A DNA stretch of 64,000 bases from Anaerolineaceae bacterium (GTDB lineage Bacteria; Chloroflexota; Anaerolineae; Aggregatilineales; Phototrophicaceae), in assembly GCA_016124855.1 (NCBI GenBank), contig WGMX01000020.1, forward strand, positions 1 to 64,000, in the 5' to 3' direction. The number at the start of each line of letters is the position of its first letter. Position 1 is the stretch's first letter. Below the pieces are notes generated by a model. The model was not told the DNA's origin and searched no databases. It was given only the letters and a program-made list of their open reading frames with translations. The translations under genes were made by a program, and so were the position numbers. Shown here one piece after another: positions 47,774-60,578 of the stretch.

Positions 47774-48445
47774 ATGAAATGGAATATTCGGTTTGCGGCG
47801 TTTTTGTTGATGGCAGTGCTGGCCGGTACAGGATGCAGCGTACTACCGGGTTTGAAAGTTCTCTCGGGGCAAGACACGGGTGAAGCCGCCGAAAACCGTC
47901 TGGTCGAATCAAGCGAATTGGTGATGGCAAACAAGTCTGGTACGACTGACCCGGCATTAAACGGTGTGGCTGACCGCATCGAAACCGCGGCTGGTGGCAG
48001 TATCGACATTATTGAAATCCGCAACGACTTAAATATCCATCAATTCCAAGTTTATGCTTTGATTATCCCTGATCCGAGTTTGGATCAACTCGGTCAGCTT
48101 AACCAGTTCCGCCGCGCGATTGAACTGACATGGCGCGGGATTATGCAGCAAAGCATCGGTGATGAAACCTTGAAAGTGGCGCTGGTATTCCCCGGACGGG
48201 TACAGACCTTGGATAGAGGGCCGGGCTTTTTGGGTGTCATCGGCGCAACTGCGACCATTGACCGTGCAGATGCGCTGGTTTATCTGGATAGTGGTTCGCC
48301 CAGTCTACAAAACTTTGCCGGTTTGATTACGGATGGTAAATTGGCCTATGATGTACCCCCAGATCAAGAATTGTATCGGGGCACACCGAATCACCCCGTT
48401 TTCATGCTCTCTAATTTAGGGTCTTCTGCTTCAAGCGGAGGCTGA
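47774..48445 (+). CDS. Lipoprotein of unknown function with metalloprotease-side context
   Basis: A lipobox LAGTGC (Cys21) follows a basic N-region. The mature protein (ENRLVESSELVMANKSGT ... GVADRIETAAGG, then IDIIEIRNDLNIHQFQVYALIIPDP and VALVFPGRVQTLDRGPGF) has no recognised family. It lies 58 nt upstream of the FtsH-like gene on the same strand with no terminator between, so it probably belongs to the same transcript and could be an extracytoplasmic partner. Confidence 0.7.
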   Translation: MKWNIRFAAFLLMAVLAGTGCSVLPGLKVLSGQDTGEAAENRLVESSELVMANKSGTTDPALNGVADRIETAAGGSIDIIEIRNDLNIHQFQVYALIIPDPSLDQLGQLNQFRRAIELTWRGIMQQSIGDETLKVALVFPGRVQTLDRGPGFLGVIGATATIDRADALVYLDSGSPSLQNFAGLITDGKLAYDVPPDQELYRGTPNHPVFMLSNLGSSASSGG

Positions 48446-48502
48446 AGTATTTGTGGAAAACATGCTTATCGTAAGTTGTTCAGAGTTGAGGATAATTGAC
48501 CT

Positions 48503-50380
48503 ATGAGCATCGTTAAGCCGGATGCAAAAAATAAGCTCGCTCCCCCGCGTAAAGTTTACGCATGGGAGAACGAGAAGACCCGCGTTGAGGAGCGGCAAAA
48601 GTTACGCTACCGTTTGCAACGCACCTTTACCCTTCCTCGTCTGATTATCATCATCTTAGTAGCCGCTATGCTACTGGATGCTTCCGTAATGCGCGGCATT
48701 ATCGGTTTCATTAACCAGATTGCTACCGCGATTGTCCAAAACTTCTCGGTGGATTTTACCAATCTGACGCGGACTCTCTTACAACTCTTGATTGGTATCA
48801 CGATAGCGGTCGGACAGTTCGCGCTGATTTTCTGGTTCTTGGGCAATGCCCGAACGTACACCATTTGGCCGGGGGCTGCTAGCGAAGGCATCAGCTTTGA
48901 TGATTATCGCGGTCAGCCGGAACTGCTAGAACAAGCACGTCAGATTGTGAAGCTGCTGCGCGGCGTTCGCATCTTTGAAGAGTCAGGCGGTGAACCCCTG
49001 AATGGCTTGCTGCTCGAAGGCCCTCCCGGTACGGGTAAAACGTGGTTGGCAAAGGCTATCAGCACTGAGGCCAATGTTCCTTTCTTCTACATTGATGCCT
49101 CGTCGCTAAATTCGATGTTTATGGGTATTGCGCCTATGAAGGTTTCGAACCTGTATCGCAAAGCACGTAATGCGGCGAAGGATTACGGCGCGGCTATTAT
49201 TTTCATCGACGAAATTGATGCGATCGGTTCACGCTCAGGTGTGGCGACTAACCCTCGCGAAGGCGATACTGATACACGCCTGCCCATGCTTTTCGGTATG
49301 GGCAGCAACAGCGGTATGGTCAGTACGCTGCTGGTGGAAATGGACGGTTTTAACGCTGAACATGGTGGATGGGCGAAGCGTAAAGCATGGTTCTACAAAA
49401 ACATCTTGGGGAGCAAGCTGCCCAAGCCTCGCCGTCGTGTTCTGACAATTGGCGCGACCAACCGTATGTTGGCGCTCGATCCGGCGTTACTCCGAGCAGG
49501 ACGTTTTGACAAAAAGATTCGTGTGGACGCGCCTGATTTGGAAGGTCGCCGCGACATCTTTGATTATTATCTGGAACACTTCAAGCATGATGAAACGGTG
49601 AATTCGTTGATTTTGGCATCCGAAACGCCGTATTACACGCCAGCCGACATTAAACACTTGATTAACGAAGCGCTGCGGTACGCCATGTTTGACGGGCGCG
49701 ATACCGTCACCATTAACGATGTTCGTCAAGCACAGCCTGAACATGAATTCGGCCTGCGGAGTCCGATCAAAAATATGACGGCTGAGGATCGCTATCGGCT
49801 GGCGGCGCATGAAGTTGGACATGCTCTTTCAGTTCGTTTGTTTATGCCTTCGCATCGTATCGCCCGGATCACGATTATTCGTCAAGGCGGCGCACACGGC
49901 TATGTGCTGCATTATCCGGCGATTGAGGACAACGACATTATCAATACCTACGATAGCCTAATGGGAAGGCTGCGGGTTTCGATTGGTGGACGTGCTGGCG
50001 AATTGGAATTTGTCGGTGAACATTCCCAAACGTTAGGCGTTGGTACAGGCTTCGGCGATGGTAGTGATTTTGGGAACATCCGCTATATCTTGACTATGAT
50101 GGCGGAAGTTGGCATGTTTGGGCCGTTAGGCGCACATTACAGCGGCGAACTGACGGAAGAAATGGAAAATACCTTCCGCAATGTTTTGGAAGAAGTACGT
50201 CTTTCTTTCCGCCTTCACAAAGAGATGGGGGAAGCGCTTATCAAATTGGTCTTAGAGAAGGACGAGATATTTGCGGATGAGATCGAAGCCTTCTTCGATA
50301 AATATGGATTGTATACACCCAAAGTTGATCTTGACCCCTATAAGAAGATCGAAACCGTGACAGGGGGTAAAAGCGCATGA
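48503..50380 (+). CDS. FtsH-like AAA+ membrane protease with intact M41 zinc site
   Basis: Two membrane helices (about 45-65 and 95-118) with only a short external loop are followed by an AAA+ domain: Walker A EGPPGTGKT (Lys179), Walker B IIFIDEID (Asp236/Glu237) and SRH GATNRMLALDPALLRAGRFD. The M41-like domain holds HEVGH (436-440) and a candidate third ligand Asp522 (DGSDFGNIR). Relative to FtsH it has a roughly 24-residue basic insertion after MDGFNAEH. It would degrade membrane or cytoplasmic proteins. It is 58 nt after the lipoprotein gene and overlaps the next start by 4 nt. Confidence 0.85.
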   Translation: MSIVKPDAKNKLAPPRKVYAWENEKTRVEERQKLRYRLQRTFTLPRLIIIILVAAMLLDASVMRGIIGFINQIATAIVQNFSVDFTNLTRTLLQLLIGITIAVGQFALIFWFLGNARTYTIWPGAASEGISFDDYRGQPELLEQARQIVKLLRGVRIFEESGGEPLNGLLLEGPPGTGKTWLAKAISTEANVPFFYIDASSLNSMFMGIAPMKVSNLYRKARNAAKDYGAAIIFIDEIDAIGSRSGVATNPREGDTDTRLPMLFGMGSNSGMVSTLLVEMDGFNAEHGGWAKRKAWFYKNILGSKLPKPRRRVLTIGATNRMLALDPALLRAGRFDKKIRVDAPDLEGRRDIFDYYLEHFKHDETVNSLILASETPYYTPADIKHLINEALRYAMFDGRDTVTINDVRQAQPEHEFGLRSPIKNMTAEDRYRLAAHEVGHALSVRLFMPSHRIARITIIRQGGAHGYVLHYPAIEDNDIINTYDSLMGRLRVSIGGRAGELEFVGEHSQTLGVGTGFGDGSDFGNIRYILTMMAEVGMFGPLGAHYSGELTEEMENTFRNVLEEVRLSFRLHKEMGEALIKLVLEKDEIFADEIEAFFDKYGLYTPKVDLDPYKKIETVTGGKSA

Positions 50381-50622
50381 CGAATATCAAGAACGCACCC
50401 AATCAAAGTTATGAATCTGATTCTAAGAACACCATCAAGTGGTTTTCCGTTTGGAACTTGTTGGCTGTAATTGCAATCATTGTGTTCTTTTGTCTAGCGA
50501 TCAAAGGTTTTTTGTGGCCACCTTTGGATCCCAGAGAAATCTCTTTGCAGGCTATCTGCTCAGGGTATATCTTCTCAGTTAATTATGTCCGTACATGGCT
50601 TAAAAACGGTGGCAACCGTTAG
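50377..50622 (+). CDS. Small membrane protein; N-terminal remnant of an FtsH-like copy
   Basis: The 81-residue product starts MTNIKNAPNQSYES, nearly the same first 13 residues as the second FtsH-like protein (MKNIKNAPNQPYIN). It has one membrane helix (LLAVIAIIVFFCLAIKGF) and then diverges. ATGA overlaps the previous stop, and AGGGGGT upstream is a strong binding site shared by both starts. It may still be made, but looks like the residue of a third tandem copy. Confidence 0.6.
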   Translation: MTNIKNAPNQSYESDSKNTIKWFSVWNLLAVIAIIVFFCLAIKGFLWPPLDPREISLQAICSGYIFSVNYVRTWLKNGGNR

Positions 50623-50656
50623 ATTCATCTAACCATACATGCATTGCTTGGTGATT

Positions 50657-50694
50657 TGCTACCCTAACTTTAAATCTAATAAGATAGGGTAGCA
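50657..50694. repeat. 10-bp inverted repeat after the small membrane protein
   Basis: TGCTACCCTA (50657-50666) and TAGGGTAGCA (50685-50694) are exact complements with an 18-nt loop. There is no T-tract. It could be a processing or stability element. Confidence 0.5.
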
Positions 50695-50778
50695 GTCATC
50701 AAAACCATGCAAATCGACGATAACCAATGTGTGATCGTCAAATTATCTATTTGGCATTTACACACAGATTATGATGGG

Positions 50779-50960
50779 ATGTGCGGCTTTCCTTACAGTT
50801 GCACAAAGAGATGGATGAGATACTCATCAAGCTAGTATTTGAGAAAACTATTTTTCTCGGGCGAAATAGAAGATTTTTTTCGAAAAACATGGCGTTTTAC
50901 ACGCCGAAGATTGATTTCAACCCTATAAGAAATCGAAACCGTGACAGGGGGTAAAAGCTC
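50779..50960 (+). pseudogene. 3'-end remnant of a third FtsH-like gene
   Basis: From about 50779 the DNA parallels 50190-50380 of the first FtsH-like gene (GCACAAAGAGATG, ATCAA, GAGAA, ACACGCCGAAGATTGAT, AACCGTGACAGGGGGTAAAA). The homology continues across the next start codon. Frameshifts and stops break the reading frame (it would read LHKEMDEILIKLV, then shifts). It shows that the locus arose by tandem duplication with deletion of most of the middle copy. Confidence 0.8.
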
Positions 50961-52820
50961 ATGAAGAATATCAAGAACGCACCCAATCAGCCTTACATCA
51001 ACACGAAAGGCCAATGGAATTGGGAAGACGAAGATACGCTGGTAGACCGTCATAATACACTGAGCAATCGCGTCGGCCGTTTCTTGCGCAGCGGGTGGAT
51101 TTGGAAGACGGTACTAACGGTTTTTATCATTGGATTGCTTATTCCGAGTGTGATGCGACTGCTGCTGACCATTCTCGGTGTAACCATATCGGTTGGCGTG
51201 TTCATGATGACCATTGTCGTGCAATTCGTCGCTATTTTCTGGTTCCTGAGTAAATCGCGTACATACGAGATTATGCCGGGGACTGAAGGTGTAAGCTTCG
51301 ATGACTATAAAGGTCAACCTGAACTGCTGGAACAAGCCCGCCAGATTGTGACTTTGCTGCGCGGCGTTGGAACATTTGAGAAAGCAGGCGGTGAACCGCT
51401 TACGGGTGTACTGCTCGAAGGGCCACCCGGCACAGGTAAAACGTGGCTGGCGAAAGCCATTAGCACTGAAGCTGGTGTGCCGTTCTACTATGTGGACACC
51501 TCATCCCTTCAAGGCATGTTCATGGGAACAAGCTCGTTGAAGGTCATTAATATGTTTGGGAAGGCGCGTAAAGCTGCCAAAATGTATGGCGCGGCGGTGA
51601 TCTTCCTTGACGAAATTGATACGGTTGGTTCACGTGGAGGTGTCAGCAGCACGCAGGGACAAAGCACGGGCGGAAATCCTCTAGCTGGTATGGGCGGCGA
51701 AATGGGTTTGCTCAGTACCTTGCTGGTGCAGATGGATGGTTTTAACGCCGAGCATGGTTGGCGTGCGACATGGAAGGCGCGGTTTTACAAGTGGTTCTTG
51801 CGACGCAAGGTGCCGAAGCCAGAACGTCGTGTATTGGTCATTGGCGCGACTAACCGTGTGGCCTCACTCGATCCGGCGCTGCTCCGTCCGGGACGTTTTG
51901 ATAAGAAACTGCGTGTCGATCCACCGGATATGCAAGGGCGCATTGAAATCTTCAAATACTACTTGACGAAGATGGCGCATGACGACAGCATGATTCCGGC
52001 AGTTCTAGCGACTGAGACACCCGGTTATACACCCGCTGACATCAAATATCTGTTGAATGAGTCCTTGCGTTACGCGCTATTTGCAGGACGTTCTTATATT
52101 ACATATGATGATTTCCGCATCGCTCAACCGGAACATCATATGGGGATGCGTGCGCCGATCAAACACATGTCACCGGAGGCCAAGCGCAGATTAGCTTATT
52201 ATCAAGCTGGTTATGCCACAGCTATTCGGCTCTTCATGCCACATCACCGTATCGCGCGAGTTACGATTATCCGTCAAGGACAGTTATACGGTCACGTATC
52301 CCATTATCCGGCGCAGGATACTTATCAGGGCATGTGGTCGAAAGTGCAGATGGAAAGTAACTTGAAAGTTTTGGTCGCGGGTAAAGCTGCCGAAATTGAA
52401 TTTTTGGGCGCACCCAACCAAACTGTGATGGTTGATCGTCACTTATCGGCTGTGAAAAATATCCTTAACGCAATGGCGATGGCGGGTATTCTTGGCCCAC
52501 TCGGTGGAACGGTGGGTCGGATACAAGAAACTATTCTCGGTCCGCAGCTTTCGTTAGGTGCGTCGAAGGAAATGCAAGAAGCGATGGAGGCTGAATTCCA
52601 GAAGCAGTTGAAAGAATGCCGTGAGGCACTGCGGGCGAATGCCAACATCGTGAACTCCTTGGCTGACAGATTGTTGGAAAAAGGCGAGATTAACGCCAAT
52701 GAGGTACGCGCGTTCTTCGATGAGTATGACTTGCACACACCTGATCCTATCGTGCTGCAAGATGATAACGAAGTGCAATTGCTGGAAGCCGCTACTGCAC
52801 CGGCTCCTTCAGGTGATTAA
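50961..52820 (+). CDS. FtsH-like AAA+ pseudoprotease (zinc site lost)
   Basis: Same architecture as the upstream protein: two membrane helices, Walker A EGPPGTGKT (Lys160), Walker B VIFLDEID (Asp217/Glu218), SRH GATNRVASLDPALLRPGRFD, and the basic insertion after MDGFNAEH. At the protease site, however, HEVGH is replaced by YQAGY (414-418), and the third ligand position (DGSDF) by VDRHL, so zinc cannot be bound conventionally. The ATPase appears functional. It probably acts as an unfoldase or as a regulatory subunit of a mixed ring with the active paralogue, like plant FtsHi proteins. Confidence 0.85.
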   Translation: MKNIKNAPNQPYINTKGQWNWEDEDTLVDRHNTLSNRVGRFLRSGWIWKTVLTVFIIGLLIPSVMRLLLTILGVTISVGVFMMTIVVQFVAIFWFLSKSRTYEIMPGTEGVSFDDYKGQPELLEQARQIVTLLRGVGTFEKAGGEPLTGVLLEGPPGTGKTWLAKAISTEAGVPFYYVDTSSLQGMFMGTSSLKVINMFGKARKAAKMYGAAVIFLDEIDTVGSRGGVSSTQGQSTGGNPLAGMGGEMGLLSTLLVQMDGFNAEHGWRATWKARFYKWFLRRKVPKPERRVLVIGATNRVASLDPALLRPGRFDKKLRVDPPDMQGRIEIFKYYLTKMAHDDSMIPAVLATETPGYTPADIKYLLNESLRYALFAGRSYITYDDFRIAQPEHHMGMRAPIKHMSPEAKRRLAYYQAGYATAIRLFMPHHRIARVTIIRQGQLYGHVSHYPAQDTYQGMWSKVQMESNLKVLVAGKAAEIEFLGAPNQTVMVDRHLSAVKNILNAMAMAGILGPLGGTVGRIQETILGPQLSLGASKEMQEAMEAEFQKQLKECREALRANANIVNSLADRLLEKGEINANEVRAFFDEYDLHTPDPIVLQDDNEVQLLEAATAPAPSGD

Positions 52821-52831
52821 ACCAATCAATT

Positions 52832-52865
52832 GTCTTTGGGGTGATGTGTTCCTCATCCCAAAGAC
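52832..52865 (+). terminator. 13-bp hairpin between pseudoprotease and VWA genes
   Basis: GTCTTTGGGGTGA (52832-52844) pairs with TCATCCCAAAGAC (52853-52865, one G-U) over an 8-nt loop, 12 nt after the stop. It lacks a T-tract, but its stability suggests termination or attenuation, so the VWA gene may be only partly co-transcribed. Confidence 0.6.
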
Positions 52866-52967
52866 TACCCCTATAGCCAGTTTTCGCTTTGCCCTCAGGT
52901 GAGTTAAGATCATATCAACAGCCATCAGAAACCTTCGTCCGATTTGGTTTGATGAGGTATCCCCAAT

Positions 52968-54350
52968 ATGGACAATCGTATGGTGCAATTTATCCGGGCG
53001 ATGCGCGCGGCGGGGGTGCGTATTTCGCTGGCGGAAAGTCAGGACGCGATGTACGGCGTGGATGCGGTCGGCGCGGGCAACCGTGATGCGTTCCGTTCGA
53101 CACTACGGGCAACACTGGTCAAGGAAGCCCGTGATCAAGGCACGTTTGAATATTTCTTCCCGCTGTTCTTTGGTAATAATCAACCACCGCTGAACAACAT
53201 CCCTGACAATCTCTCGCCTGAAGATCAGCAAAAGTTGCAAGACGCGCTCAAATCGCTCATGGGCAATATGGACGCGCTCAAAGATTTGCTGCGGCAGATG
53301 CTGGAAGGCCGTCCCTTCAGCCAAGATCAGCTTGACCAGATGGGCGAACAGGCAGGGATGAACCAAGGCAGCGAGATGTATCAGCGCCAGTGGTTCGAAC
53401 GGCGCATGAACCGTCAATCCGGAATGCAGCAGCTTCAAGACATGATTGAACAGCTTCTGCAAGAACTGGAAGCGATGGGCATGAGCGACGAGGCGTTGGA
53501 AGATTTGCGCCAACAGCTTCAAGAGAATGCCAAGGGACTGGCTGAACAAATCTCGCAGTATGTGGGTTCGAATTTAGCGGAACGGCTGGCGGAACAAGAA
53601 CCCGACCCTAAGCCTGATTTGTTGGACGTGCCTTTCTCGGAGTTAAGCCAGAACGAAGTGGATGCCATCCGTGACGAAATCCGGCGATTGGCTGCACGAC
53701 TGCGCAGCCGCGCTTCTTTGCGGCAACGACGCGCAAACGCGGGCGAGATGGACCCGCGCAAGATGATGCGCCGGAATATGCGTTACGGTGGCGTGCCGAT
53801 TGAGATGAAGTTCCACACACACCACGTCAAGCCGCGTTTGGTGCTGATTTGTGACATCAGTACGTCGATGCGTTACTGTGCCGAATTCTTGCTGACGCTG
53901 GTCTATGAACTGCAAGATGTGGTTGCTAAGACCGACAGCTTCATTTTTATCAGCGATATGGTAGATATCAGCATGATTTTTGAGGAAAAGCAGCCCCAAG
54001 AAGCAGTTATGCAAGTGCTTTATGAAAATCCACCGGGTTATTACAGCACGGATTTGGGCAACGGCCTGAAAACTTTCCAGCGTGACCATATGAGCAAAGT
54101 CGGCAGCAAGACGACGGTGATTATGCTCGGCGATGGGCGGAATAATTACAATAATCCTCAGATTGGGATTGCTCAAGACATGCAGCGTCATGCGCGGCGG
54201 GTGCTGTGGTTCTGCCCTGAACCGCGCAGCCAATGGGGTACAGGTGACAGTGATATGCACCAGTATGCCCAAGTTTCGGATGGTGTGTATAAAGTCAGCA
54301 ACTTGCGCGAACTGGCGAACGCAGTTGATGCCATTTTGACGGACGGGTAG
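52968..54350 (+). CDS. CoxE-like VWA domain protein
   Basis: The N-terminal half is helical and Gln-rich (LQDMIEQLLQELEAMGMSDEAL). The C-terminal half is a VWA_CoxE domain with MIDAS DISTS (Asp296, Ser298, Ser300), the second-loop Thr in YYSTDLGNGL and Asp in LGDGRNNYNN. CoxE proteins usually partner a MoxR-type AAA+ ATPase to insert cofactors or remodel complexes. No MoxR gene is present; the nearest AAA proteins are the FtsH-like pair. A start after TGAGG is used. Confidence 0.85.
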   Translation: MDNRMVQFIRAMRAAGVRISLAESQDAMYGVDAVGAGNRDAFRSTLRATLVKEARDQGTFEYFFPLFFGNNQPPLNNIPDNLSPEDQQKLQDALKSLMGNMDALKDLLRQMLEGRPFSQDQLDQMGEQAGMNQGSEMYQRQWFERRMNRQSGMQQLQDMIEQLLQELEAMGMSDEALEDLRQQLQENAKGLAEQISQYVGSNLAERLAEQEPDPKPDLLDVPFSELSQNEVDAIRDEIRRLAARLRSRASLRQRRANAGEMDPRKMMRRNMRYGGVPIEMKFHTHHVKPRLVLICDISTSMRYCAEFLLTLVYELQDVVAKTDSFIFISDMVDISMIFEEKQPQEAVMQVLYENPPGYYSTDLGNGLKTFQRDHMSKVGSKTTVIMLGDGRNNYNNPQIGIAQDMQRHARRVLWFCPEPRSQWGTGDSDMHQYAQVSDGVYKVSNLRELANAVDAILTDG

Positions 54351-55355: not shown

Positions 55356-58300
55356 TTATTTCATGGGGAGAACTTCACGGGGTTTCGCGCCTTCGACGGC
55401 TGGCCCGATGATGCCCTCTTCTTCCATACGGTCGATAAGGCGGGCAGAACGGGTGTAGCCGATGCGTAAGCGGCGCTGCAACAGGGACACCGAGGCTTTA
55501 CCCAAACGGCGCACCATATCAACAGCCTCTTCGTACAGTACGTCCTCTTGATCGTCGGAGGCATCATCGTCTCCGCCACGCCCGCTGCCATTTCCAGCAC
55601 TGGTGTTGGACTTCATGTCAGTATCCCAGAAAGCCTGCTGGGCTTGAACGCGTTCGCTGCCGGCAACGACCGAGCGTGACGGTTCAACAACGGTGTTATC
55701 GACTACCAGAGCGCTGATCGGTCGCGCGGCCACATCATCAGCGGAAATTTGCGACTTCCAGTAACGGGTGATGTTCTGGATTTCTTGATCCGACACATAC
55801 ACACCCTGCAAACGGAGGGCTGCCGGAGCGTCACCGCTCATGTAGAGCATATCACCCTTACCAAGCAGCCGTTCAGCGCCGGGTTGGTCGAGAATAACGC
55901 GGCTGTCAACACCGCCCGCCACCGCGAAAGCGATACGTGCCGGGAAGTTGGCTTTGATCAAACCGGTGACGACATCGACCGATGGACGCTGCGTGGCGAT
56001 CACCAGATGGATACCGGTGGCGCGTGCCAGCGCTGCGATACGGGTGATGACCCGTTCCGTTTCGTCCGGCGCGAGCATCATCAAGTCGGCTAATTCGTCG
56101 ATAATGACGACGATATACGGCATTTGTTCGGCATCGGGTTGCAGATGCTTATTGTAGTCCTCAATGTTACGTGCGCCTGCCAGACTGAACTTCTTATAGC
56201 GCTCGTCCATTTCGCGCGTGACCCATTTGAGTACGCCGACGATGCGTTCGAGTTCAACCACGACCGGCGCGACCAAATGCGGAATGCCGTTATAACCGGT
56301 CAATTCAACGCGCTTGGGGTCAACCATGATGAACTTGACTTTGTCAGGCGGGTTCATGGCGACCAAACTGGTAATAATGGCATTCACGCAGACTGATTTA
56401 CCGGAACCGGTTGTACCTGCAATCAGTAAGTGGGGCATCGAACCCAAGTCGGCTGAAATCGGCGTACCATCAACACTTTGTCCCAACGCGATGGCTAAGG
56501 GCGATTTGTTGAAGATTTTCTTGAACTGATCAGATTCCATGACGTCGCGCAAGCTGACCAACGAGGCTTGATCGTTCGGCACTTCGATACCGACATAGCC
56601 TTTGCCGGGAACAGGCGCTTCAATACGGATGGATTTGGCGCCCATCGCCAACTGTAAGTCTTTATCAAGTTGGGCAATCGCACCGACCTTGACACGGTTT
56701 TTCTTGCCGCTGCGAGTGACCAGATAATCCGGCTCGACACCGAACTGGGTAATCACAGGGCCGGTATTGACTTCAACCACTTTACCGGGCGCACCGAAGC
56801 TCTGTAACGTTTCCTCGATAATCTTGGCGCGGCGTAATAATTCGCCACGATCAAAGTCATTTTCCGAACCGGGCATCAGCACCTGCGATATGCTGGGCAT
56901 GCGCCATTCTTTGCGCTTACGCGGCACGTTGGTGGGTGCGGTTGTGCCTACGCCGGGTTGACGCAGCGGAATTTCCGGTGAGCGACCGATGGGTGTGGCA
57001 TCCGGTACGGCGGCAGCGGCGGTATGGGCTGGCGGCGGTGGCGGCGTTGTGAGGGCTGCGCTTGCCATGCCATCGCGTCCACCGGGGTTGATGGTCACAC
57101 CAGCCGGGTCAGGCGGCTTGCCGTAAGATGGCGCGGCAGGTTCGGCCTTAGGACGCGGCGCTTCGGATTTTTCCGGCTCATAGGCTTTAGCTGGTGCTGC
57201 TGCCGAGGCTGACGGTTTACTATCATTCCAGAAAGCGGCAGCAGGCTGCGGCGCTTTGTTATCCGACGCTGGCACAGCCGGTTTATCCACTGTGGGTGAG
57301 GTGGGCGGCGAGGTTGGTTTGCCAAAAGCGCTGCTCGGCGATGGAGGTGGCGCGGCTGGTCTACCAAAGGCGCTGCTCGATGTGGCTGCGGCTGGCGGTG
57401 CAGCCGGCTTACCAAAGGGACTATTCGCAGGCTGTGTACTTGTGCCGTTTCCATTCCCATTCGCGGGCGCAGCCGAGGCCGCCGCCGGTTGGTTTATAGG
57501 GCTGGCTGGTTTATCAGCTTGTGCATCGGGTTTAGCCGACGCTGGCGACGGTACAGGCGCGCCGCCCTGCCGGATTTCATTCAAGCGCCCCATACGATCT
57601 GCGCTGGCTGGTTGGGCATCCGCAGGCCGGTTTGAACCAAAGGTGGTCGCACCAAAACGGCTGGTCTGCTGGCGTGGCATGGGTTCGCCCAAACCCTTGG
57701 GCGTGGCGGGCGGCAGCTTGGACAATTCTTCGCTGTCGTCCATTTCGTCCATATCATCAATTTCGTCGTCCAAGTCATCGAGATCATCTTCAGGCTTGGC
57801 GGCAAAAGGTGATTTATACGGTGTTGACGCCGGTACAGGTGGCTTCGGTGCTGTCGCTGGTGCGCTTGAAATTGTCGCACTGGATGTGCCGAACGGTTTA
57901 GGCGCATCACTGCCGAAGGTACGGGCAGGCGGTGAAGCTGGGCTGGATGCTGGCGAACTGCCTCCAAAGGCCGGACGTGACGGTGGCTGCGATGGGGACG
58001 ATGGACTAAAGGATGAACTCCCTGATGGTGTAGCTGTCGCCGGTTTCATCAATTCACCCAAACGAGCGGGCGGCGGTTCTTGTTTAGCCGGTGCGCTGGA
58101 TGGTGGTGGCATCGGGGAGCGCACTGGCGCGGCAGTTGGAGCCGCCGAGGCTGATGCGTTGATGGTCGCGGCTGCGGATTGGGATGACGGAGTTGCAGAC
58201 GGCGAAGTGGTTGCAGGTGCAGCCGGTTTATCCGCTGGTTTGGCGCTGTCATCTTTGCCGGCACGATTAAATAAGCGACCAAACCCACCGGCAACGGCTC

Positions 58301-60578
58301 CGGCTGTCGCAGCGGCGGCAGTTGTCGCAATCGAAGGTTTGGCGCTGGTATCGGGCGCGGCCTCAGCTCTGGCAGGTGCAGCCGATGCCGGTTCTGCTGA
58401 TTTCCGTCCGGGGATCATGCTGCCAAAACGTCCGGCGATGCCTGAGGCCGGCGAGGGTGTAGGCGCTTTTGTGGCAGATGCAGCCGTTTGGCGCTCGACC
58501 GGAACCAATTCCTGTGTATTAAGGCCGCCGATTTCTTTCTTACCACCGATGTTGATGGCAATCGGACGTTCAGCACGGACAGGCTCGCCAGCCGGTAAAG
58601 CGGCTGCTTCGCTGGCTGCTGGTAAGGCCGCTGCGGCGGGCGCGGCGGGCAAGGCTTGCGCGGTCTCTTTGGTGACACTCAAGGTCGGTGGTGAGGCGGC
58701 TTGTGCCGTCAACTGCTCAAGGGATGCCGCTGCGGCTGCCTGCCGCTGTTGAGCGCGGCGCTGACGTGTATCTTGGAAGCTGCGAACGTTGCTGATGACA
58801 ATCATCGCCAGTTCTGCCGCGCCAATATCGAGCGTGAACATGATGCCGATAATAAACATCAACAAGATCATGAAGAATGCACCGGCTTCGGTGACATTGG
58901 CCACGAGGAAGTAGTAAATCTCCCAACCGATTTCACCGCCACCTGTTTTATAGGCTTTGAGCGATAAATCCATCTGGACGGCGAGTTCTTGGAAGTTGTG
59001 AACGGCGCGGCTGCCGACAAAGTTAAAGGTGTCGATATAACTCATGAACGTCAACAGGGCGATGTAGGTTATGACGATGCCGATAATCCGTTTACGCGGA
59101 ATGACGGGCGCATTTTCGCCAAAGTGACGTGCGATCAACCAAACGCCGACAATCAGCATGGCGACCGGAATAGCGATTGAACCCCATCCCGCGAGGCCGA
59201 TCAGAAAATCGTTGATGGCCTGTGTTAGCTTGCCTTCTGTTGTTGAGAGACGGCTGAAAATCAATGCTAAAGAACTCAACAACAGGGCTACGCCGAGGAT
59301 GTCGAGTTTGGTATCCAGCGAGATGCCAGCCCCATCATCGAGAGTCGGTGCTTTGCTGGTGCGGGCTTTCGGCGCGGGCTTGGCTGATCCGTCTCCGCCA
59401 CTCAAGAAAGAGGGTAAGAAGCGTCCTAAACCGGACTTTGCGCCGGTGCTTGATTTAGTTGTGGCTGGTTTGCTGCCGGGGGCGGAATTACCACCCAATC
59501 GGCCAAAGGGTGACGAACCACCGGTGCTCGGTGTGGCAGGTTTAGAACCACCTACAGTTGGATTGGTGCCGGTTGAGCGTGTACCACCAAAAGCGGATGA
59601 ACTGCTGCTGCTAGAAGCTGCCGGTTTTTTGGGATCTGATTTAGCGCCACCGCCGAAACGTCCAGTAATGCCACCGAGCAAACCACCGGATTTTTGACCG
59701 CTGGTTCCTTTGGGCGTGGCGGGTTTATCGGCTGATTTAGCGCCACCGCCGAAACGTCCTGTGAGGCCGCTTAAACCGCCGCTGATGCCACCGAGTGGGC
59801 TGCCTTTCGGCGCGCTGGTTCCTTTGGGCGTAGCGGGTTTATCGCCCGATTTATCTCCGCCACCGCCAAAACGTCCGGCTAGTCCACCGAAGACACCGGG
59901 TTTTTTATCACTCGAACTGCTTGAGCTGGAAGGGGAAGAACTACTTCCGGCGGGACGGCTGCCAGAACCGAAGGAGCTGCCAGAGCTGCTCGAACCGCTG
60001 CTGCTCGATCCACTGCCAAACGATGAACTTCCGCTTGGTGAGGCGGGACGGTTCGCGCTGGATGAACTGCCAAAACTTCCCGAACTGCTTGAGCCGGAAG
60101 GGGAAGAACTGCTGCTCGGCGGACGGCTTCCACCAAATGGAGATGATCCGCTCGGACTGCTCGAACTGCCGCTGCCGGAACTGCCAAAACTCGACCCGCT
60201 GGTCGGTGGACGGTTACCGCTGCCGAAGCTGCTTGACCCGGAAGGGGACGGACTGCTGCTCGGCGGACGGCTTCCACCAAACGGGGATGTACCTCCGGTG
60301 GATGTGGTTGGACTGCTGGGAGACGTGGGACGGCTTCCACTTGACGAACCTAATGGAGGCCGCGCCGCTGATGAAGCTGAACTGCTCGATACAGGGCTGG
60401 TACGTCCACCAGCTCCCGGTAGATTTGAAGTTGGGCGACTGCTGGAACCACCGAATGGATTCACGCGTGATGACGATGATGAACTACTTTCGTCGTCATC
60501 ATTCTGATCTTCATCATCTTCGATTTCGTCTTCGTCATCGTCGTCAAATTGGTCGTAATCGCCGCCTACATAACGCAT
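55356..60578 (-). CDS. ftsK: FtsK/SpoIIIE-type DNA translocase with very long low-complexity linkers
   Basis: The 1740 residues start with an acidic tract (DYDQFDDDDEDEIEDDEDQ). A Ser/Gly/Pro repeat region (about 35-420) follows, with repeated FGGGAKS.. and SGSSSFGS-like units. Four membrane helices (from about 425 to 605) come next, then a second 650-residue Ala/Pro/Ser linker. The motor domain (from about 1255) has Walker A GTTGSGKS (Lys1394) and Walker B VVIIDELADL. The winged-helix gamma domain is at the C-terminus (KASVSLLQRRLRIGYTRSARLIDRM). It pumps chromosomal DNA through the division septum. The linkers make it roughly twice the usual length. AGGTGAGCCACT precedes the ATG. Confidence 0.93.
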   Translation of the reverse strand: MRYVGGDYDQFDDDDEDEIEDDEDQNDDDESSSSSSSRVNPFGGSSSRPTSNLPGAGGRTSPVSSSSASSAARPPLGSSSGSRPTSPSSPTTSTGGTSPFGGSRPPSSSPSPSGSSSFGSGNRPPTSGSSFGSSGSGSSSSPSGSSPFGGSRPPSSSSSPSGSSSSGSFGSSSSANRPASPSGSSSFGSGSSSSGSSSSGSSFGSGSRPAGSSSSPSSSSSSSDKKPGVFGGLAGRFGGGGDKSGDKPATPKGTSAPKGSPLGGISGGLSGLTGRFGGGAKSADKPATPKGTSGQKSGGLLGGITGRFGGGAKSDPKKPAASSSSSSSAFGGTRSTGTNPTVGGSKPATPSTGGSSPFGRLGGNSAPGSKPATTKSSTGAKSGLGRFLPSFLSGGDGSAKPAPKARTSKAPTLDDGAGISLDTKLDILGVALLLSSLALIFSRLSTTEGKLTQAINDFLIGLAGWGSIAIPVAMLIVGVWLIARHFGENAPVIPRKRIIGIVITYIALLTFMSYIDTFNFVGSRAVHNFQELAVQMDLSLKAYKTGGGEIGWEIYYFLVANVTEAGAFFMILLMFIIGIMFTLDIGAAELAMIVISNVRSFQDTRQRRAQQRQAAAAASLEQLTAQAASPPTLSVTKETAQALPAAPAAAALPAASEAAALPAGEPVRAERPIAINIGGKKEIGGLNTQELVPVERQTAASATKAPTPSPASGIAGRFGSMIPGRKSAEPASAAPARAEAAPDTSAKPSIATTAAAATAGAVAGGFGRLFNRAGKDDSAKPADKPAAPATTSPSATPSSQSAAATINASASAAPTAAPVRSPMPPPSSAPAKQEPPPARLGELMKPATATPSGSSSFSPSSPSQPPSRPAFGGSSPASSPASPPARTFGSDAPKPFGTSSATISSAPATAPKPPVPASTPYKSPFAAKPEDDLDDLDDEIDDMDEMDDSEELSKLPPATPKGLGEPMPRQQTSRFGATTFGSNRPADAQPASADRMGRLNEIRQGGAPVPSPASAKPDAQADKPASPINQPAAASAAPANGNGNGTSTQPANSPFGKPAAPPAAATSSSAFGRPAAPPPSPSSAFGKPTSPPTSPTVDKPAVPASDNKAPQPAAAFWNDSKPSASAAAPAKAYEPEKSEAPRPKAEPAAPSYGKPPDPAGVTINPGGRDGMASAALTTPPPPPAHTAAAAVPDATPIGRSPEIPLRQPGVGTTAPTNVPRKRKEWRMPSISQVLMPGSENDFDRGELLRRAKIIEETLQSFGAPGKVVEVNTGPVITQFGVEPDYLVTRSGKKNRVKVGAIAQLDKDLQLAMGAKSIRIEAPVPGKGYVGIEVPNDQASLVSLRDVMESDQFKKIFNKSPLAIALGQSVDGTPISADLGSMPHLLIAGTTGSGKSVCVNAIITSLVAMNPPDKVKFIMVDPKRVELTGYNGIPHLVAPVVVELERIVGVLKWVTREMDERYKKFSLAGARNIEDYNKHLQPDAEQMPYIVVIIDELADLMMLAPDETERVITRIAALARATGIHLVIATQRPSVDVVTGLIKANFPARIAFAVAGGVDSRVILDQPGAERLLGKGDMLYMSGDAPAALRLQGVYVSDQEIQNITRYWKSQISADDVAARPISALVVDNTVVEPSRSVVAGSERVQAQQAFWDTDMKSNTSAGNGSGRGGDDDASDDQEDVLYEEAVDMVRRLGKASVSLLQRRLRIGYTRSARLIDRMEEEGIIGPAVEGAKPREVLPMK
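59640..60480 (-). repeat. Repetitive DNA encoding the FtsK N-terminal linker
   Basis: Short repeats encode Ser/Gly/Pro units. A roughly 45-bp block containing TTTAGCGCCACCGCCGAAACG and its variants recurs near 59640, 59735 and 59850, and GGCGGACGGCTTCCACCAAA-type units recur at 60118 and 60265. Slippage or recombination is likely to change its length between strains. Confidence 0.7.

Follow-up and report, generated by a model that had tools for sequence, protein, structure and literature searches.

Recurrent zinc-site loss in one of two paired FtsH-like proteins of a conserved operon in a family of Chloroflexota

Rings of the FtsH type unfold, extract, and cut membrane proteins, and the gene set described here bears on how many cutting sites such a ring needs and on when a protease becomes a pure motor. 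The subject is a gene set on contig WGMX01000020.1 of an Anaerolineaceae bacterium (assembly GCA_016124855.1), of which positions 1 to 64,000 were analysed; this whole stretch of 64,000 nucleotides is called the window. Four genes transcribed in one direction on its + strand encode a lipoprotein (A), two FtsH-like proteins (B and C), and a CoxE-type VWA protein (D). B retains the zinc-binding motif HExxH, and C has lost it in the window and in some of its relatives. An earlier reading of the same DNA, referred to below as the original prediction, had likened the pair to the FtsH/FtsHi rings of chloroplasts and suggested that all four genes might serve one larger membrane machine.

Among the closest described arrangements is that of the chloroplast FtsH12/FtsHi1,2,4,5 proteins (Ycf2-FtsHi), in which, according to three accounts (PMC9020784, PMC11266112, PMC8197885), an FtsH with HExxH works with subunits that lack this motif and keep the ATPase. 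An active FtsH and a zinc-dead, ATPase-keeping subunit are likewise found here, and the predicted model of C matches a chain of the Ycf2-FtsHi complex (8xku_E, Z 23.7). The likeness is one of motif state and fold match. In contrast to the plastid system, the present one is bacterial and consists of a single operon with two paralogues and a lipoprotein, its zinc loss is recurrent within C and looks recent in the window, and it bears no sign of a protein-import role. Paired FtsH proteins forming mixed rings are described, in PMC9020784, PMC12994072, and PMC5438985, for yeast Yta10/Yta12, human AFG3L2/paraplegin, and cyanobacterial and thylakoid pairs. Two FtsH paralogues occur here too, known from their genes, whereas the zinc-dead state is not a recurrent feature of those pairs, and B and C have a basic insert and no external domain of the usual kind.

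Presumed inactive FtsH proteins have also been described in bacteria. PMC8197885 mentions FtsH/FtsHi paralogues in Firmicutes and, in Prochlorococcus marinus SS120, a single gene of this kind; these figure there as single cases, whereas the operon described here is conserved, its losses are repeated, and its active partner is constant. The MoxR-vWA-FtsH ternary conflict systems, as outlined in PMC7159879, resemble the locus in that the genes of a vWA protein and of an FtsH-type ATPase are neighbours. However, their FtsH has two ATPase domains, the first inactive, and their cluster includes MoxR, whereas each of B and C contains a single AAA domain, which is intact, and no MoxR adjoins them, so that the locus falls outside that definition. 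A zinc-dead bacterial FtsH is therefore not new in itself; the new part, within the open-access literature searched, is the conserved operon with repeated loss, and no earlier report of such a bacterial operon or of repeated loss within one was found there.

Zinc-site states and selection in B and C

B and C are about half identical, and both exceed the curated Pfam cut-offs for AAA followed by Peptidase_M41. Against the NCBIfam FtsH equivalog they score 264 and 278 bits, respectively, below the 600-bit cut-off, so neither is assigned to it. In B, Walker A lies at aa 173-180, DEID at 236-239, GATNR at 317-321, and RAGRFD at 331-336, followed by HEVGH and by GSDFG with the third-ligand Asp (Table 1). 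C has GPPGTGKT at aa 154-161, DEID at 217-220, GATNR at 295-299, and RPGRFD at 309-314, and the alignment places YQAGY and VDRHL where the zinc site would be. Walker A, Walker B, the second region of homology (SRH), and the pore-loop Phe are present in both proteins, and the alignments of B and of C show little or no variation at the residues of Walker A, Walker B, sensor/SRH, and the pore loop. The motif positions and the alignment confirm what the original prediction had stated of the zinc sites and of the ATPase motifs. In the window, HExxH with an Asp third ligand, as in FtsH of the M41 type, is found in B only. C shows the FtsHi-type pseudoprotease pattern (zinc motif lost, Walker A/B and SRH kept), as do 13 other C copies.

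The zinc site was scored, where readable, in the 31 genomes with B and C and in two named extra genomes. Five rows of single-copy kin (L113-L117) and L118_B, the B of OLB15, which is broken into two open reading frames (ORFs) in the assembly, were dropped, and the protease part was unreadable in four rows (L047_B, L049_B, L050_B, and L038_C). HExxH is kept by B in 30 of 31 readable copies. The exception is B of L018 (genome G002), which reads HQVGH next to an intact C on a contig with a coverage of 3.6 and may be a sequencing error. C has HEAGH in 18 of 32 readable copies and is zinc-dead in the other 14, with the motifs YQAGY (window), REAAK (three near-identical copies), REAGK, YQAGR, YQAGK (three), YQAGV (two), YQAGM, YYASK, and YFAGQ. 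The Asp ligand is still present in 13 of the 14 dead copies, being lost in the window only, and the ATPase motifs are retained in every one of them. No genome with both genes readable has both B and C dead. The zinc-dead second paralogue of the original prediction thus holds for the window and 13 further copies, but not as a fixed property of C.

On a tree built without the protease domain (32 readable C rows plus L070), the dead state of C takes seven changes, or seven losses if the state cannot be regained, a count that hangs partly on row L112 and on weakly supported branches. Among 1000 bootstrap trees, five losses are obtained in 6, six in 368, seven in 574, and eight in 52, and well-supported branches by themselves force at least four changes. 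Five dead groups were read by eye from a whole-length tree without the living rows L108 and L112. The loss in the window looks recent because its nearest relative, L019, with 89% identity in the ATPase part, still has HEAGH.

Loss of the zinc site could be the first step of gene loss, with C redundant after a duplication and drifting. The window itself offers some signs of this kind. The protease part of its C has 59% identity to that of its living sister L019 and 63% to that of L030, which are 79% identical to each other, whereas the ATPase parts of the three are 84-89% identical. Additionally, B and C stand 580 bp apart in the window, whereas in most relatives they overlap or are separated by a few bp. 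The junction begins with a copy of the start of C (MTNIKNAPNQ, followed by an unrelated tail) in an 81-aa ORF (P0005) that overlaps the end of B, and at its other end is a decayed copy of the final 180 bp of B (50778-50955 against 50192-50371, 72% identity). The arrangement looks like what remains after the B-C unit was duplicated in tandem and a deletion then occurred, and the present C may therefore be the second copy.

Decay is nevertheless very improbable as the general explanation. Dead clades of several species carry intact ORFs, and the ratio of nonsynonymous to synonymous substitution rates (dN/dS) of the C protease domain, in pairs within these clades, is 0.025, 0.059, 0.070, 0.131, 0.147, 0.157, and 0.272, as compared with 0 to 0.148 in six B pairs of the same genomes. 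These values indicate that purifying selection acts on dead C, and in most pairs it is as strong there as on living B, which argues against simple decay of the second gene, an outcome that the original prediction had named as fatal to its proposal. The retention of the ATPase motifs in all dead copies and the lack of any genome with B and without C among the 31 point the same way.

In the predicted structure of C the FtsH fold extends through the protease domain, with a Z of 26.5 to apo-FtsH 3kds over aa 109-590 (419 residues aligned, 3.8 A). Its confidence is low at the loop of the former third ligand, aa 481-490 (mean 63), and over aa 511-530 (65 and 45). At the N-terminus of B, hydrophobic stretches lie at about aa 40-70 and 91-115, some 20 residues apart, and in C hydrophobicity is near-continuous over aa 46-99, with helices at 34-60 and 62-96 in the predicted model. 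Judged from these stretches, the external part is short and neither protein has an external domain between two membrane helices, in agreement with the original prediction. Between Walker B and SRH both proteins carry a 29-residue basic insert, which the original prediction had regarded as foreign to FtsH. It is indeed missing from the two further FtsH genes of the genome of the window, both canonical, but it is not private to the pair, as single-copy kin elsewhere in the phylum carry a version of it (see below). An amphipathic membrane-binding helix in this insert was considered and not supported, the hydrophobic moment exceeding that of shuffles (P < 0.1) in two of 30 B, one of 32 C, and seven of 20 single-copy rows.

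Distribution and origin of the gene set

The conservation of the set was followed in 101 genomes, namely that of the window and 100 relatives, of which 61 belong to the family of the window and 40 to other families of the order. B and C are both present in 31 genomes, all of them among the 61 of the family, and the pair was not found in any of the 40 from other families. Among the 31, C never occurs without B, nor B without C. The two genes lie on the same strand in all 27 fetched loci that have both on one contig, and they overlap or stand no more than 10 bp apart in 19 of the 27 (L033 is counted because the ORF caller starts its C too early), which is more than chance would give. At one locus, B and C are separated by a gene of 640 aa on the same strand (L034:7961-9883), the end of which resembles a nucleotide cyclase domain by eye. 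Named records with the pair bear the labels Anaerolineae, Chloroflexi, or Aggregatilineales, apart from two, L096 (labelled Bacteroidetes) and L099 (Pleurocapsa minor), which carry the Chloroflexota set and are probably mislabelled genomes.

The lipoprotein A is found in 32 of the 101 genomes, comprising the 31 with B and C and G013, and in none of the other 69. In G013, A is situated 26 bp from a contig end, and B and C may have been lost to an assembly gap. The cysteine at position 21 is invariant in 25 of 25 aligned rows, and the A of the window has Gly at -3, which makes its lipobox imperfect. No Pfam or NCBIfam match was obtained for A, and its predicted model has a pLDDT (predicted local distance difference test score) of 80.5. 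A zinc-dead, ATPase-competent FtsH beside an active one in a bacterial locus, as in the original prediction, is supported, and the locus is conserved; the strong co-occurrence of A, B, and C across 31 genomes runs counter to the other outcome that this prediction had named as fatal, a lack of conserved co-occurrence elsewhere.

In wider samples, 396 genomes from the class and 400 from the phylum, with at most three candidates scored per genome, the B/C pair was seen only in the family of the window. Outside the family, G330 encodes just one close homologue (798 bits), upstream of which is an A-like lipoprotein (56 bits), and many other genomes have one more distant single copy at 404-516 bits. 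Twenty single-copy loci from 19 genomes, hand-picked from the hit lists of these samples, represent the closest kin of B and C. They share with them the short N-terminal membrane part and, in 20 of 20, a 25-38 residue version of the basic insert at the same place. They differ in being single genes, in having HExxH in 20 of 20, and in what lies upstream: in nine of the 20 loci, among L071-L089, the FtsH gene is preceded by an unrelated membrane protein of about 170-300 aa, of which one was tested and gave no Pfam match. A relationship of this protein to A was rejected, with an hhalign probability of 0.5%.

In the whole-length tree, from which rows shorter than 400 aa were excluded, B forms one clade (100/100). 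A tree with C as one clade and a tree with B nested within C are two changes apart, and the outgroup is distant. Together, trees and searches suggest that a short-headed FtsH with the basic insert, which is widespread in Chloroflexota and probably old there, was duplicated in one family to give B and C.

The VWA gene and other neighbours

D matches VWA_CoxE of Pfam at 118 bits, and the residues of its metal ion-dependent adhesion site (MIDAS) are invariant in 18 aligned rows, as in the CoxE-type VWA member of a MoxR-VWA pair. Against the MadC family (NCBIfam NF047783) it scores 149 bits, below the 600-bit cut-off, and is not assigned to it. In a larger machine of the kind that the original prediction suggested, D would be a working part of one complex with A, B, and C; VWA proteins have such a role with MoxR ATPases. 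Besides the invariant MIDAS residues, this is favoured by the nearness of D to C, which coordinates show in 21 of the 30 B/C genomes that allow a judgement (including G039, with a gap of 3.9 kb; G047 was not judged). D is not close to C in the remaining nine (G002, G007, G011, G020, G031, G038, G040, G055, and G057); in three of these, G011, G020, and G031, little of the contig remains beyond C, and D is found on a different contig, preceded by at least 15 kb. Partial correlations of pairwise distances in 23 genomes, taken without a permutation test, are 0.78 for B-C, 0.46 for A-B, and 0.45 for A-C given D, -0.10 for B-D given C, and 0.50 for C-D given B, the last of which also speaks for a link of D to the set.

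However, matches to D occur in 90 of the 101 genomes, and all 30 family members that lack detected B/C are among them, although two of these matches are weak and paralogue-level (G036) or partial (G013). Furthermore, among 24 genomes from other families of the order, 13 have a MoxR ATPase gene on the strand of D and no more than 1.2 kb from it. No D so near that MoxR was found in any of the 37 family genomes searched, and in the genome of the window the MoxR is on another contig (G000:C36), so that no MoxR adjoins D. Partnership with MoxR is usual for CoxE-type VWA proteins. Given its occurrence and its adjacency to MoxR in other families, D most likely works with an unlinked MoxR ATPase and is often found beside A-B-C without being specific to this set; a four-gene machine is accordingly improbable. 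Of the four-gene order originally proposed, the A-B-C part stands and D does not.

In six loci a Polyketide_cyc2 (SRPBCC-type) gene lies between C and D (L033:10755-11339, L017, L026, L037, L040, and L044). Further along the window, positions 55356-60578 encode an FtsK/SpoIIIE-like protein of 1740 aa, named by eye, with a very long Ser/Pro/Ala-rich part. Structured RNA and tRNA were looked for in the window and none was found.

Table 1. Features of the locus in window coordinates
Feature	Position	Strand	Remarks
Gene A, lipoprotein, 223 aa	47774..48445	+	Matches neither Pfam nor NCBIfam; constantly accompanies B and C
Gene B, FtsH-like AAA+/M41 membrane protease, 625 aa	48503..50380	+	Zinc site intact
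Basic insert of B, aa 284-312	49352..49438	+	Net +8; lies after Walker B and before SRH
HEVGH zinc-binding motif of B, aa 436-440	49808..49822	+	
Third-ligand Asp region of B, GSDFG, aa 520-524	50060..50074	+	
B-C junction	50377..50960	+	C-like 5' fragment and decayed copy of B 3' end
Gene C, FtsH-like AAA+ subunit, 619 aa	50961..52820	+	Zinc site dead
Basic insert of C, aa 262-290	51744..51830	+	Net +8
YQAGY of C, aa 414-418	52200..52214	+	Replaces HExxH
VDRHL of C, aa 491-495	52431..52445	+	Replaces third-ligand Asp; His at Asp column
Gene D, CoxE-type VWA protein, 460 aa	52968..54350	+	MIDAS residues intact

A putative half-armed membrane machine

With modest confidence, A, B, and C are read here as a dedicated membrane AAA+ machine, probably with a mixed B/C ring, in which the proteolytic sites have been halved repeatedly. 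A mixed ring would be the simplest reading because both subunits have all the parts for ATP hydrolysis and substrate grip. After the duplication, B and C would assemble into one ring. All of its subunits would hydrolyse ATP and draw substrate through the pore; B would cut, and the C of the window would contribute motor and ring structure without cutting. As B and C have almost no external domain, A is a candidate receptor that may serve at the outer face, where ordinary FtsH has that domain. Loss of the zinc site of C, several times in different lineages, would be tolerated or favoured because B still cuts, and it would halve the proteolytic sites and leave the motor complete. Such a half-armed ring would keep extraction and translocation and cut less, which may suit substrates that are to be moved or trimmed, not destroyed. 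A more far-reaching form of the proposal is offered only tentatively: a fixed mixed ring would have turned several times independently from a full to a half-armed protease acting mainly as a membrane-protein translocase or extractor, the pseudoprotease would then have been kept by selection, and the lipoprotein would replace the external domain as substrate receptor.

Alternatively, B or C could form separate homohexamers, with B as a protease and dead C as a ring that uses ATP to translocate or extract membrane proteins but does not degrade them, in the manner of Msp1 or an FtsHi motor. C retains every ATPase and pore motif that such a ring would need, and PMC5438985 describes FtsH-type ring proteins that dislocate substrates without proteolysis, as well as Msp1, which is without proteolysis. 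Still, separate rings seem rather unlikely, as C is never without B in the 31 genomes that have C, and dead and living C occur in the same operon with the same partners, which is easier to understand if C is always in a ring with B.

Besides this alternative, several points weigh against the proposed half-armed mixed ring. Halved proteolysis is not general, given that C keeps its zinc site in 18 of 32 copies, and if the HQVGH of L018 is real, B is not always the cutter. The pair with the highest dN/dS, L046-L020, is less constrained. The protease domain of the window's C has diverged fast, and relaxed constraint is possible there; as synonymous sites are saturated, it cannot be distinguished from re-shaping. 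A has no known fold, its best PDB match having an E of 0.031 and none reaching E <= 0.001. The distance correlations tie C to D as well as to B.

Whichever way the rings are built, the clade, a group of uncultured Chloroflexota, provides matched sets in which the same operon occurs with C alive or dead, that is, a natural experiment on the need for cutting. A close pair is at hand in the window (dead) and L019 (alive), 89% identical in the ATPase part. In bacteria, the set parallels the FtsH12/FtsHi arrangement of plants, and its zinc-site losses can be seen at different ages.

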